Positions 1-34,349 of a stretch of DNA of 34,349 bases are shown one piece after another. The first letter of the stretch is position 1; every line of letters starts with the position of its first letter. Position numbers and translations under genes: made by a program. The notes beneath the pieces were generated by a model. It was not told the origin of the DNA, made no database searches, and saw only the letters and a program-made list of their open reading frames with translations. The DNA is from a virus. The stretch spans positions 1-34,349 of IMG/VR virus record IMGVR_UViG_3300032322_000681; one strand, 5' to 3'.

Positions 1-123
1 ATCCGCGAGTGGGGCTTCACGACCGCTGTCCTGGTGGACGAGTCCGGCAGCATCATTGCCGGTCATGGTCGCGTGATGGCTGCTCGCAAACTCGGCATGG
101 CATCATTGCCGGTCATGGTCGCG
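1..123. repeat. Terminal direct repeat, left copy
   Basis: Bases 1-123 are identical to bases 34227-34349 at the other end of the window. Genes read across the junction: the ParB part of the methyltransferase starts at 34098 and its catalytic part lies at the window start. The simplest reading is an assembly overlap of a circular or terminally redundant genome. Because the overlap ends exactly where a short internal repeat ends, an assembler branch point is a better explanation than a natural terminal repeat. Confidence 0.95.
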
Positions 124-1145
124 TGATGGCTGCTCGCAAACTCGGCATGGCATCATTGCCGGTCATGGTCGCGGCAGGCTGGACCGATGCCCAGAAGCGC
201 GCCTACGTCATCGCTGACAACAAGCTGGCGCTGAACGCTGGCTGGGACAACGAGCTGCTGGCGCTCGAGCTGGGTGAGCTGGGTGATCTTGGATTTGATC
301 TGGACTTGGTGGGGTTCACCGATGAGGAGATCGCGGCGCTGATGCCTGAGCAGATAGAACCTGGCAAAACTGACGAGGATGCAGTACCGGAAGTTCCAGA
401 GCAGCCGGTCACGGTGCTTGGCGATGTTTGGATTCTTGGAAAGCACCGGCTCATGTGCGGCGACAGCACCAGCATCGACGCGGTGGACACGCTGATGGAC
501 GGGAACAAGGTCGATATGCTGTTTACCGACCCGCCGTACAACGTGGCTTTCAATGGCCGGTCCGGCAAGCACGATGTGATCAAAAACGACGACCTGGAAG
601 AGGGCGAGTTTGACCAGTTCATTGGCGAGGTGCTGCAGACCATCAAAACGATCAACGCCCCAGCTTTTTACATTTGGTGTAACTGGAAGTTCTACGCCAC
701 GCTGCAGCGTGAACTTGAATACAAAGCCTGCATTGTTTGGGCCAAAAACGTGTTTGGCATGGGGACAAACTACCGCCACCAGCATGAGTTCTGCCTGTTC
801 AATGGCAGCATTGACGACCACATTAAAAATGAATCCGACCTTTGGGAGGTCAAAAAGGACACCAATTATGTCCACCCAACGCAAAAGCCGGTGGCATTGT
901 CTGAGCGTGCCCTTGGGAACCACAGCAAAGCCACAAACGTTCTCGACCTGTTTGGTGGCAGCGGAAGCACTTTGCTTGGCTGCGAGAAAATGAAGCGAAG
1001 CGCATTCGTCATGGAGCTGGACCCAAAGTATTGCGACGTCATCGTCAAGCGCTGGCAGGACTACACTGGCAAAATCGCAGTTCACGCAGAAACTGGACAA
1101 CCTTTCGCGGAGGTTAAAGATGGCAGCACGAAAACCCACAATTGA
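9..1145 (+). CDS. ParB-domain/DNA methyltransferase fusion, C-terminal part (frame broken at the contig start)
   Basis: This is the methyltransferase half of a fusion whose start is at 34098 on the other side of the contig junction. True coding begins in this frame near 102; the preceding codons are out of frame because of the extra 50-bp repeat. Joining 34098-34349 to 174-1145 gives an uninterrupted protein of about 407 residues. It shows the N6-adenine/N4-cytosine methyltransferase motifs DPPY (about residues 203-206, nt 528-539) and then FGGSGS (about 344-349, nt 951-968). This order, catalytic motif before the SAM-binding motif, is the beta-class arrangement. The expected role is methylation of phage DNA, perhaps as protection from host restriction; the target is unknown. 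The 3' end overlaps the terminase small-subunit gene by 26 bases. Confidence 0.88.
   Translation: MGLHDRCPGGRVRQHHCRSWSRDGCSQTRHGIIAGHGRVMAARKLGMASLPVMVAAGWTDAQKRAYVIADNKLALNAGWDNELLALELGELGDLGFDLDLVGFTDEEIAALMPEQIEPGKTDEDAVPEVPEQPVTVLGDVWILGKHRLMCGDSTSIDAVDTLMDGNKVDMLFTDPPYNVAFNGRSGKHDVIKNDDLEEGEFDQFIGEVLQTIKTINAPAFYIWCNWKFYATLQRELEYKACIVWAKNVFGMGTNYRHQHEFCLFNGSIDDHIKNESDLWEVKKDTNYVHPTQKPVALSERALGNHSKATNVLDLFGGSGSTLLGCEKMKRSAFVMELDPKYCDVIVKRWQDYTGKIAVHAETGQPFAEVKDGSTKTHN
50..173. repeat. 50-bp tandem repeat built on a 24-bp repeat
   Basis: A 24-base sequence starting GCATCATTGCC occurs at 50-73, 100-123 and 150-173, with an identical 26-base spacer between copies, giving a 50-bp period. Fifty is not a multiple of three, so each extra unit shifts the reading frame. 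With two copies, as at 34276-34349, the ParB-MTase gene reads through intact; with three copies, as here, frame 1 hits TGA at 124-126. Within the intact gene, the first copy encodes SIIAGHGR and the second ASLPVMVA, in two different frames. Confidence 0.93.
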
Positions 1146-31378: not shown

Positions 31379-31567
31379 ATGATGACCCTGGAACAGATTC
31401 GAGAATCCTTGCGAGACCGCATGCCTGCCAAGGTTGCGGAGGCCACCGGACTGCACTACAACACCATCCGAGAGGTGCGCGACAACCCAGATGCCAATCC
31501 GACCTACAAGGTTCTCAAGGCCTTGTCGGATTACCTGACACGCAGGGAGGCCACGATCAATGGCTGA
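31379..31567 (+). CDS. Small HTH regulator (Cro-like size)
   Basis: This 62-residue protein has a DNA-binding helix-turn-helix: MPAKVAEATGLHYNTIREVR (about 15-34) with a scaffold helix ahead (LEQIRESLRDR) and a C-terminal helix (TYKVLKALSDYLTRREA). It is the first rightward gene, beside the divergent promoters, and overlaps the primase gene by eight bases. It probably controls the early switch. ATGATG gives two equivalent start codons (31379 and 31382). Confidence 0.8.
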   Translation: MMTLEQIRESLRDRMPAKVAEATGLHYNTIREVRDNPDANPTYKVLKALSDYLTRREATING

Positions 31568-33614
31568 TCTTTCCAACGTCCTTGGCGGCCCTTGGTCGCC
31601 ACCTCCAGAAAAGCGGGTTGCGCCTCCAGAGGAGCAGCTCCTTGATGCCATCAAGTCAGCCGGGCTGGAGCAGCCAGATCAGGTGATCTTCGATGGCAAG
31701 CTGCACCGGTTCAAGTCAGGGACCAAAGGCAGCGCCAAAACAGGCGACAAGTCAGGCTGGTATGTGGTCTTCGGTGATGGTGTTCCAGCAGGCCGCTTCG
31801 GCTGCTGGCGCATGGGGTTCGAGTCACCCTGGCGTGCAGACGTTGGCAGGAAACTGACAGCCACCGAGGAGATGGCCAACGCCAGGCGGCTGGCAGAGGC
31901 AAAGGCATTGCGAGAGGCAGCCCTGGAAAAGCAGCACGAGGTGGCCGCGGCGACCGTGGAGGCAATCTGGACAGCGGCCCAGGCAGCCAGTCCCGATCAC
32001 CCGTATCTCAAGCGAAAGGGCATCCAGGCGCACGGTGCCAGGATCACAGGAGACGGCAGGCTGATCGTGCCACTGTTCGACAAGGATGGCCAACTCTGCA
32101 CCCTGCAGTACATCGACAACGAAGGAGGAAAACTCTACCACCCAGGCGGCGAGGCCGGTGGGAAATTCTGGATGGTAGGCTCACTGGATGAGCCTGGCGT
32201 GCTTTATGTGGCTGAAGGGTTTGCCACAGCGGCCACAATCCATGAGACGACAGGCCGCCCCTGCGTGGCCACTTACAGCGCCAGCAGCCTGGTGCCGGTC
32301 ACTGGAAGCCTGCGCGAGATGTTCGGGATTGGCCAGGACATTGTGATCGTCGCAGACCACGACAAGCATGGCGTCGGGCAAAAGTATGCCGACCAGGCGA
32401 GCGCGAAGTTCGGTGCCAGGGTGATCATCCCACCCATCGAGGGCATGGACGCCAACGATTATGCACAGGCTGGGCACGATTTGGTCGGCCTGCTAGTGCA
32501 GCAAACTGGCTCAGCCGTGATCGACAAGCTACAGGTGGTTTTTGGTGACCAGCTCGGCAGCGATTACGAGGCACCAGACGAGCTGGTGGAAGGCCTGATG
32601 ACCATCGGCAGTTCGGTGGTGGTTTACGGAGACAGCAACTCCGGAAAGACCTTCTGGGCGCTGTCAGTGGCCACGGCCATCGCAAGTGGCGAGGACTGCT
32701 ACGGCCGCAAGACCGACCCCGGCCTGGTGGTCTACCTAGCCAGCGAAGCCCCGGCCAGCATCCGGTCGCGCATGCAGGCCATCAAGAAGTTCCACGGCTG
32801 CAGCCTGGAGAACCTGGCGATGGTGCCTGTCCCGATGAACTTCTACTCTGGCGACCAGGATGCCCACGACGTGATCGAGCTGGTGCGTGCCATTGAGGTG
32901 GCCAAGGGCAAGCCGGTGCGCCTGATCATCGGCGACACGCTGGCCAGGATGAGCGCCGGCGCGAACGAGAACAGCGGCGAGGACATGGGTCCAGTCATGG
33001 CCAGATTCGACCAGGTGGCCACGGCAACAGGCGCTGCCATGATGATCATCCACCACAACGGCAAGGACGCAGCCAAAGGCGCTCGCGGCTGGTCCGGCAT
33101 CCGTGCCCACATCGACACCGAGATCGAGGTCAGCGAGAAGGAAGGCACCCGGTCGGTGACCGTCACCAAGCAGCGAGAGCTGCCAAGCAAAGGCGAGACG
33201 ATCTACTTCAAGCTGGAGGTGATCGAGATGGGCAAGACCAAGTTTGGCGGCCCAGCGACCACCTGCGTGGCCGTGCCAGACCAAGAAGCAGCAACCACAA
33301 AACCCCACAAAAAGCCTACAAAGCACGACGAGAACGTGCGCACAGTCGAGCGCGCCTGGTGGGCATCAGGTGCCGAAGAGCGTGAGGGTTTTCCCTATGT
33401 AAGCAGGTCGGCGCTGCGTGATCTGCTGGTCAAAGATGGAGCGACCGAGCGCACCGCAAAGAACAAAACCGAGGCATCCAGACCGGATGGAATTATCTCG
33501 CAAATGCTCAACGCAGGCGCTCTGGAGACGTTCGAGCATGGTTGGATTTTCGTCAACAAGGCGCAGGCAAGTGCCATGCTGATGCAAAAAAATGGAGGAC
33601 AAAATCGCCCCTAA
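31560..33614 (+). CDS. TOPRIM primase - RepA/AAA_25-like helicase
   Basis: This 684-residue protein joins a primase-like N-terminal half to a RecA-fold ATPase. TOPRIM motifs are VAEGFATAATIHE (Glu219), VIVADHDKHGVG (Asp266/Asp268) and GMDANDYAQAG. Walker A is YGDSNSGKT (356-364). Walker B is RLIIGDTLARM (about 447) and the next sensor-like part is MMIIHHNGKDAAKGARGWSG. The first 100 residues hold a PriCT/zinc-poor segment (LHRFKSGTKGSAKT) before an Ala/Glu-rich linker. It would prime and unwind phage DNA, using the host polymerase, since no phage polymerase is present. Its stop overlaps the first origin repeat. Confidence 0.92.
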   Translation: MADLSNVLGGPWSPPPEKRVAPPEEQLLDAIKSAGLEQPDQVIFDGKLHRFKSGTKGSAKTGDKSGWYVVFGDGVPAGRFGCWRMGFESPWRADVGRKLTATEEMANARRLAEAKALREAALEKQHEVAAATVEAIWTAAQAASPDHPYLKRKGIQAHGARITGDGRLIVPLFDKDGQLCTLQYIDNEGGKLYHPGGEAGGKFWMVGSLDEPGVLYVAEGFATAATIHETTGRPCVATYSASSLVPVTGSLREMFGIGQDIVIVADHDKHGVGQKYADQASAKFGARVIIPPIEGMDANDYAQAGHDLVGLLVQQTGSAVIDKLQVVFGDQLGSDYEAPDELVEGLMTIGSSVVVYGDSNSGKTFWALSVATAIASGEDCYGRKTDPGLVVYLASEAPASIRSRMQAIKKFHGCSLENLAMVPVPMNFYSGDQDAHDVIELVRAIEVAKGKPVRLIIGDTLARMSAGANENSGEDMGPVMARFDQVATATGAAMMIIHHNGKDAAKGARGWSGIRAHIDTEIEVSEKEGTRSVTVTKQRELPSKGETIYFKLEVIEMGKTKFGGPATTCVAVPDQEAATTKPHKKPTKHDENVRTVERAWWASGAEEREGFPYVSRSALRDLLVKDGATERTAKNKTEASRPDGIISQMLNAGALETFEHGWIFVNKAQASAMLMQKNGGQNRP

Positions 33615-33753
33615 ACGCCCCTGAGTGCCCCTAGGGGTTTTTAGGGGTTAGGGGCAAAAGCCCGTTAAATCGCCCCTCCCCGCCCCTAAAACGTATACGT
33701 TAGGGGCGGTAGGGGCAACGGGATGCGGGAAATCAGGGATAAAGTTATCCACA
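33606..33753. other. Putative replication origin: GCCCCT repeats, nested palindromes and DnaA box
   Basis: Five CGCCCCT-type copies (33606, 33616, 33626, 33671, 33681) and five inverted AGGGG(C) copies (33633, 33643, 33650, 33702, 33711) lie in 111 bases, mostly at 10-base spacing. They fold into two adjacent nested palindromes; the second encloses the perfect palindrome AACGTATACGTT (33690-33701). A perfect DnaA box TTATCCACA follows at 33745-33753. This combination, between the primase-helicase and DUF3310 genes, indicates a replication origin. A ParB-type binding site or a regulator site is the alternative for the repeats. The 160-base gap 33615-33774 contains no gene. Confidence 0.72.
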
Positions 33754-34101: not shown

Positions 34102-34349
34102 CCACAAAATCCCACAAAACAAATCCAGCCGATAAGGTCGCGCAGTGGCCCATCGAAAAGCTGGTGCCATACGCCAAGAACTCGCGCACGCACAGCGAGG
34201 AGCAGGTGGCCCAGATCGCGGCCAGCATCCGCGAGTGGGGCTTCACGACCGCTGTCCTGGTGGACGAGTCCGGCAGCATCATTGCCGGTCATGGTCGCGT
34301 GATGGCTGCTCGCAAACTCGGCATGGCATCATTGCCGGTCATGGTCGCG
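34098..34349 (+). CDS. ParB-domain/DNA methyltransferase fusion, N-terminal part (cut by the window end)
   Basis: The first 84 residues carry a ParB-type N-terminal domain: KLVPYAKNSRTHSEEQVAQI, then IREWGFTTAVLVDESGSIIA, then GHGRVMAARKLG. It continues at base 174 as a methyltransferase when the overlapping ends are joined with two repeat copies. ParB-like domains fused to beta-class methyltransferases are frequent in phages; this domain may contribute DNA binding or nuclease-like activity, which is not established. The start overlaps the DUF3310 stop (ATGA). The window ends exactly at the last base of the second 24-bp repeat. Confidence 0.9.
   Translation, partial: MTTKSHKTNPADKVAQWPIEKLVPYAKNSRTHSEEQVAQIAASIREWGFTTAVLVDESGSIIAGHGRVMAARKLGMASLPVMVA
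34227..34349. repeat. Terminal direct repeat, right copy
   Basis: Identical to bases 1-123. It contains two copies of the 24-base repeat (34276-34299, 34326-34349), and the sequence stops at the end of the second copy. The intact reading frame of the ParB-MTase runs through both copies and continues in frame at base 174. Confidence 0.95.

Follow-up and report, generated by a model that had tools for sequence, protein, structure and literature searches.

A probable replication origin behind a phage primase-helicase gene and the enzyme's C-terminal domain as its putative reader

In the phage-inducible chromosomal islands (PICIs), the replication origin lies directly 3' of the initiator gene (PMC6092414). 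P4 alpha unites in one protein a bacterial-type Toprim primase, a helicase and a C-terminal winged-helix origin-binding domain, and replication of pRN1 needs, and is fully supported by, the replication operon together with a stem-loop that directly follows the gene of a primase-helicase with a C-terminal winged helix (PMC4234260). For the PICI-like element (PLE), a phage satellite, the initiator RepA and the origin iterons have been found to diversify under mobile-element conflict (PMC8263062). The element considered here lies in IMG/VR virus record IMGVR_UViG_3300032322_000681 (the window, meaning the whole stretch of 34,349 nucleotides), where it directly follows a primase-helicase gene and consists of an inverted array of short boxes (module 1) and a box-bearing hairpin (module 2). 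Comparison with relatives suggests, at a probability of roughly 0.8, that the element is the replication origin of the phage and that it would be read by the C-terminal domain of the primase-helicase itself. A first-pass annotation of this DNA had proposed a probable origin here, and the conserved array behind the same gene, the co-variation of the boxes with their putative reader, and an enrichment of DnaA boxes all argue for that proposal.

A two-part element behind the primase-helicase gene

The boxes of the element (33607-33716) comprise ten copies of GCCCCT/AGGGGC in 110 bp, at the positions given in the first-pass annotation. Eight are exact (GCCCCT starting at 33607, 33617, 33627, 33672 and 33682; AGGGGC at 33650, 33702 and 33711) and two near-exact copies, AGGGGT at 33633 and 33643, have one mismatch each. 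Boxes on the same strand are spaced by 10 and 10 bp (and by 10 and 7) in the first inverted repeat and by 10 and 9 bp in the second, which is indeed centred on AACGTATACGTT, at 33690-33701; the first box overlaps the TAA stop codon of the primase-helicase gene (33612-33614), as had been described. Just eight further exact copies occur across the remaining 34.2 kb of the genome, and the maximum in any 110-bp span of 40 shuffled sequences was three exact boxes, against the eight observed. The array is the densest 6-mer cluster of the genome. The first-pass annotation had noticed no DnaA box in the window other than TTATCCACA, which was recovered 28 bases past the last array box; a relaxed DnaA box, TTATGCACA, is also found at 32459 within the primase gene.

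Conservation of the array was evaluated in 230 distinct viral loci having a homologous enzyme and a complete 3' end. At least 191 of them carry six or more copies of one 6-mer directly behind the primase-helicase gene, and nearly all close relatives (69-96% identity over the enzyme) have the same two-part element there. The box itself is specific to the lineage, with AGGGGC, GGGGGA, AGGTGA, AGGGTCA, CGGTAAC, GCGTAAC, GTTGCG, GGTACA, GGTTCA, TGGGACA, TGGACA, TGGTACG, AGGTACC and GGGGGT among those found. The same layout with another box occurs in the more distantly related cultured phages Salicola CGphi29 (GGGGACA), Idiomarinaceae 1N2-2 (GGTACA), and Alteromonas PB15 and XX1924 (both GGTTCA), and in the uncultured ct3Oc712 (TGGGACA). 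Whatever the box, same-strand spacings peak at 9-11 bp, or one helical turn (186 of 332 spacings), and this recurrence across lineages with different boxes supports the suggestion, made originally from the window's own spacing, that a protein may bind along one face of the DNA. Two sets of boxes are usual, the gap between them being about 16-19 bp in the clade of the window. The gene that follows the element differs between relatives, and in two loci (L390 and L391) the array is somewhat further downstream, apparently past one small gene. The box GGTACC, found in L313, L379 (about 13 copies) and L244, is itself palindromic, and these arrays thus have no strand polarity.

Compared at the DNA level with named phage and plasmid records, the element gave no meaningful match because the boxes diverge, and the family was revealed only through protein-guided searches. 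Scanning viral contigs for the GCCCCT pattern returned many matches that were unrelated direct repeats without inverted partners. Salicola CGphi29 had prompted the idea of a tandem interspaced guide RNA (TIGR) array, which was discarded: the paper in question describes a distinct TIGR-Tas locus in the same phage.

Pairing in module 2 is likewise conserved by comparison. Across the window clade, which supplied 26 distinct hairpins, standard pairs make up 90% of paired cells and ten pairs are altered on both sides. The covariation score is 0.264, and slid structures score no more than 0.046; the folding z-score of the whole element is -4.2 as DNA and -5.0 as RNA. Dimeric protein sites could be the source of part of this symmetry. 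The outer stem holds no box, and its variants (CCCGTT, CCAGTT, CCCATT and others) have matching partners. Two flanking motifs appear independent of the box. GGGGCAA is present in 28 of 55 lineages with a non-GGGGC box (4.4 expected, none on the opposite strand), usually about 33-38 bp ahead of the apex stem, and GATGCGG is present on this strand in 26 of the 75 loci left once redundancy at 90% enzyme-body identity had been removed, with one occurrence on the opposite strand and 1.6 expected. Such box-independent flanks suggest a structure-specific step, for example helicase loading or priming. A longer variant hairpin (type B) replaces module 2 in the close relatives L003, L004, L009, L010, L012, L014, L018, L051, L064 and L076; type B hairpins keep GGGGCAAA and, nearly all, GATGC, and several of these loci continue with different genes and a promoter-like region that contains CCTATAGG palindromes. 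L103 and L116 have an inverted array of three boxes each way plus a second hairpin with the apex GACACCTATAGGTC.

Co-variation and joint exchange of boxes and C-terminal domain

The reader of the boxes was sought within the enzyme, using the same 75 loci, by regressing box distance on enzyme-body distance and comparing the remainder with each of 124 windows of 15 residues along the whole enzyme. The five top-ranked windows overlap and cover residues 621-655, with a peak r of 0.387 against a median of 0.019. For residues 629-646 the partial Mantel r is 0.362 (p 0.001), and the outcome is the same when boxes are permuted only within kinship clusters. Residues 641 and 635 (R641 and N635) rank first and second among 545 columns for box tracking; R641 occurs in 26 loci, all 26 with a GG(G/T)G box, and in none of the 43 loci with other boxes, although the base named for R641 is provisional because sequence, and not array layout, fixed the register in which the boxes were aligned. 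By this comparison, once relatedness is corrected for, the box varies with the recognition region in the C-terminal domain of the primase-helicase, which supports the earlier proposal that a protein binds the repeats; the putative reader protein, the covarying hairpin and the exchange described below had escaped the first-pass annotation.

What is regarded as the strongest evidence that the domain reads the array comes from pairs of phages in which both have been exchanged. In L310 and L313, residues 20-560 are 99% identical whereas the helix is 33% identical, and the corresponding values for enzyme body and helix are 99% and 35% in L458/L466, 95% and 4% in L302/L306, and 91% and 38% in L440/L443; the boxes differ within each pair. 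DNA homology in these four pairs ends 193-345 bp before the stop codon and returns 133-298 bp after it, beyond the array. The C-terminal domain and the array thus travel as one cassette. In a milder pair, L293/L294 (97%, helix 73%), the box differs by one base (GTTGCG/GTTACG). These findings make it rather probable that a widespread phage family has origin-specificity cassettes, in which a C-terminal DNA-reading domain and origin boxes are exchanged as a unit among replication genes that are nearly identical elsewhere, with at least 12 origin types in one protein family. The idea of a mobile element whose ends are the hairpins was rejected, because the element stays with a single gene, the 3' end of which is exchanged along with it. 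A gradual drift, as distinct from exchange, is seen in the close relatives L068, L078 and L080-L082, where the boxes have moved together from GCCCCT towards TCCCCCT and the protein shows slight changes near the recognition region.

An AlphaFold2 model of the C-terminal domain (predicted local distance difference test, pLDDT, 86.9; predicted template modelling score, pTM, 0.76) has the order H-E-H-H-H-E-E-H and appears winged-helix-like, and Foldseek matches in the PDB are mostly winged-helix regulators; a profile search of the domain in PDB sequences gave no relevant match. A similar C-terminal domain (36% identical, TM 0.86) is found in the Prim_Pol phage protein A0A6J5RWR5, and the domain thus occurs with more than one type of primase.

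The origin reading and its alternatives

In the mechanism envisaged, the winged-helix-like domain, encoded directly upstream, would bind the GCCCCT boxes, which are set about one helical turn apart on one DNA face in two inverted groups. Box binding would gather several copies of the enzyme, the RepA-like helicase part could then form a hexamer on opened DNA, and the Toprim part would make the first primers. Strand separation would expose the module 2 hairpin between its conserved flanks, GGGGCAA and GATGCGG, and the hairpin probably serves in loading or priming; host DnaA may assist where its box exists. Since the putative reader is encoded right next to its sites, a single recombination event can confer a new origin specificity. 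The joint exchange suggests diversifying selection on that specificity, for example through avoidance of origin cross-use by competitors or satellites, and competition with co-infecting phages or satellites is possibly what drives it.

An origin is favored because the putative reader is the replication enzyme itself, and because the layout matches the experimentally studied origins of PICIs and pRN1. Several observations weigh against it. A Salicola-like sub-clade of about 22 loci (L215-L217, L220, L222-L224, L226, L233-L236, L239, L243, L245-L249 and L252-L254) has neither array nor usual helix, its helix being different (e.g., SRRNLIDGKNARYI), and no array was found anywhere in three of its contigs of 31-37 kb. 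An AT-rich melting region is not clearly seen in general, with 24 of 51 inter-set gaps of at least 25 bp richer in AT than their surroundings. The GC skew of the whole genome does not turn at 33.6-33.75 kb, as had been predicted for an origin there, and instead reaches its lowest value near 29.6 kb and its highest near 5.5 kb; gene orientation may account for the 29.6 kb turn in so small a genome. Fold comparison of the C-terminal domain with the PDB gives weak hits (best E 0.03), and P4 alpha is missing from the 50 top-ranked structures. DnaA boxes, although enriched about 60-fold near arrays (20 of 75 nonredundant loci, 0.34 expected), are absent from most lineages; DnaA is for this reason at most a helper, and was rejected as main initiator.

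Roles other than replication were weighed as well. It is unlikely that the boxes serve, with no origin involved, as operators by which the primase-helicase or some other protein controls its own transcription or that of the following operon, though the element does sit between two transcription units, the downstream gene varies among relatives, and some relatives also have short palindromes, CCTATAGG for example, in promoter-like regions close by. About ten boxes and a covarying hairpin far exceed the usual operator, however, and the reader mapped through co-variation is the primase-helicase, DnaA boxes are enriched, and the position agrees with known 3'-adjacent origins; operator and origin roles are also compatible and not mutually exclusive. 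A function as RNA, whether structured transcript, terminator or leader between operons, would explain the stable predicted fold and its covariation, but is very doubtful given that an Rfam search of the element gave no match and that the hairpins have no terminator-like T run behind them. Moreover, the module 1 boxes stand at helical-turn intervals with variable and largely non-complementary spacers, as do protein sites on DNA, and they change in concert with a protein domain.

A different reader is conceivable in the small helix-turn-helix (HTH), Cro-like protein encoded at 31379-31567, just 5' of the primase-helicase gene in the same operon, which is likely DNA-binding and present in many relatives (the Pfam HTH score of the window's version is below cut-off; relatives' versions match P22_Cro, YdaS or HTH_3). 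Among phages with the AGGGGC box, however, versions of this protein clearly differ and have different putative recognition helices, and it was rejected as reader because different versions occur alongside the same box, leaving it a most improbable candidate. The box, furthermore, co-varies and is exchanged with the primase C-terminal domain, the formal scan having covered the primase-helicase only. Similarly remote is a packaging (pac) or partition site, which a ParB-N/methyltransferase-like gene downstream in the window, and terminase genes further downstream in some relatives, might bring to mind; box identity and the C-terminal domain of the primase-helicase vary together, and an exchange takes in both the array and that domain while the downstream flank stays.

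The coordinates of the proposed origin and of the enzyme are collected in Table 1. PHROGs assigns the gene product to primase/helicase families, and Pfam and PHROGs place a DUF3310 gene together with the ParB-N/methyltransferase-like gene downstream of the element. A direct repeat of 123 bp at the record ends (1-123 = 34227-34349) means that the record reads as a circular map of 34226 bp. The junction of the record (window 1-175 and 34276-34349) falls inside the ParB/methyltransferase gene and contains about three tandem copies of a 50-bp unit (GCATCATTGCCGGTCATGGTCGCG...); since 50 is not divisible by 3, the repeat may be an artefact that arose when the assembly was circularised.

Table 1. 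Positions of the proposed origin elements and of the primase-helicase in the window
Feature	Position	Strand	Basis or remark
Module 1, inverted box array: 3x GCCCCT, then AGGGGT, AGGGGT, AGGGGC	33607..33655	.	Starts on primase stop codon; relatives share layout
Module 2, hairpin: outer stem CCCGTT/AACGGG, two boxes in each arm, apex AACG-TATA-CGTT	33660..33726	.	Covariation, folding
GGGGCAA motif, strand-specific	33651..33657	+	Also kept where the lineage's box is not GGGGC
GATGCGG motif closing the hairpin module	33722..33728	+	Enriched on this strand
Consensus DnaA box TTATCCACA, probable auxiliary site	33745..33753	+	Enriched, not universal among relatives
Primase-helicase, 684 aa: Toprim_3 (215-304), AAA_25/RSF1010-RepA-like helicase (326-508), C-terminal winged-helix-like domain	31560..33614	+	Pfam, phmmer, PHROGs
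C-terminal domain, residues 580-684, proposed box reader, exchanged protein part of cassette	33297..33611	+	AlphaFold2, Foldseek
Specificity region, residues 629-646 around ERTAKNKTEASRPDGI; N635 33462-33464, R641 33480-33482	33444..33497	+	Partial Mantel, column ranking

Comparison with known replicons

The element appears new as a family, and so do two of its traits: box arrays stand together with a conserved hairpin, and the putative reader and its sites have repeatedly been exchanged together. No description of this origin family was found in the open-licence papers searched, and an earlier description is possible. A candidate origin and its putative reader are proposed for a large group of cultured and uncultured phages at once, and about a dozen box sequences linked to changes in one small domain form a natural data set from which a recognition code could be derived, with initiator specificity becoming testable through swaps of domain and box.

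The likeness to P4 alpha and its ori/crr is that of a single protein having primase, helicase and a C-terminal domain, winged-helix in P4 alpha and winged-helix-like by its model in the phage enzyme, together with short repeats. The Toprim primase of the P4 alpha family is present in the phage enzyme, whereas the helicase of P4 alpha belongs to another superfamily: in place of an SF3 (D5-type) helicase, the phage enzyme has AAA_25 and a match to RSF1010 RepA, and it is for this reason regarded as working like P4 alpha and not filed as a member. Nor did the best-scoring PDB structures for the C-terminal domain include the P4 DNA-binding domain. RSF1010 (IncQ), with RepA, RepB', RepC and oriV, shares the RepA-type helicase, homology being evident in a phmmer match of residues 347-508 to RSF1010 RepA (1g8y, E 4e-7), and oriV has iterons and hairpin single-strand initiation sites. 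RSF1010, however, splits over three proteins, with a primase of archaeo-eukaryotic type, what is here one protein with a Toprim primase. The RepA of PLE is an unrelated initiator with semi-palindromic iterons of about 30 bp, in contrast to the 6-7-bp boxes here. The resemblance is that initiator and origin sites diversify, as in PLE (PMC8263062).

In PICI/SaPI (Staphylococcus aureus pathogenicity island) Pri-Rep-ori systems, the origin is directly 3' of the primase/initiator gene and has element-specific iterons in two sets (PMC6092414), an organization matched here by a lineage-specific repeat array immediately 3' of the replication gene in most of the 230 loci. The phage element differs in that its second set is a covarying, box-bearing hairpin flanked by GGGGCAA and GATGCGG, its AT richness is inconsistent, and the helicase part is RSF1010-RepA-like. 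With pRN1 (orf56/orf904) it has in common a small repressor gene, a primase-helicase with a C-terminal winged helix (winged-helix-like by its model in the phage enzyme) and then a downstream stem-loop, the essential origin stem-loop of pRN1 being conserved by structure and not by sequence (PMC4234260). A covarying stem-loop downstream of the replication gene is likewise found here, whereas pRN1 is without iterons and has a Prim_Pol primase and SF3 helicase where the phage enzyme has Toprim_3 and AAA_25, and the phage hairpin is combined with box arrays. In summary, the locus is organized like the origins of P4, PICIs, pRN1 and RSF1010 and, by the domain tests made, is a member of none of these.
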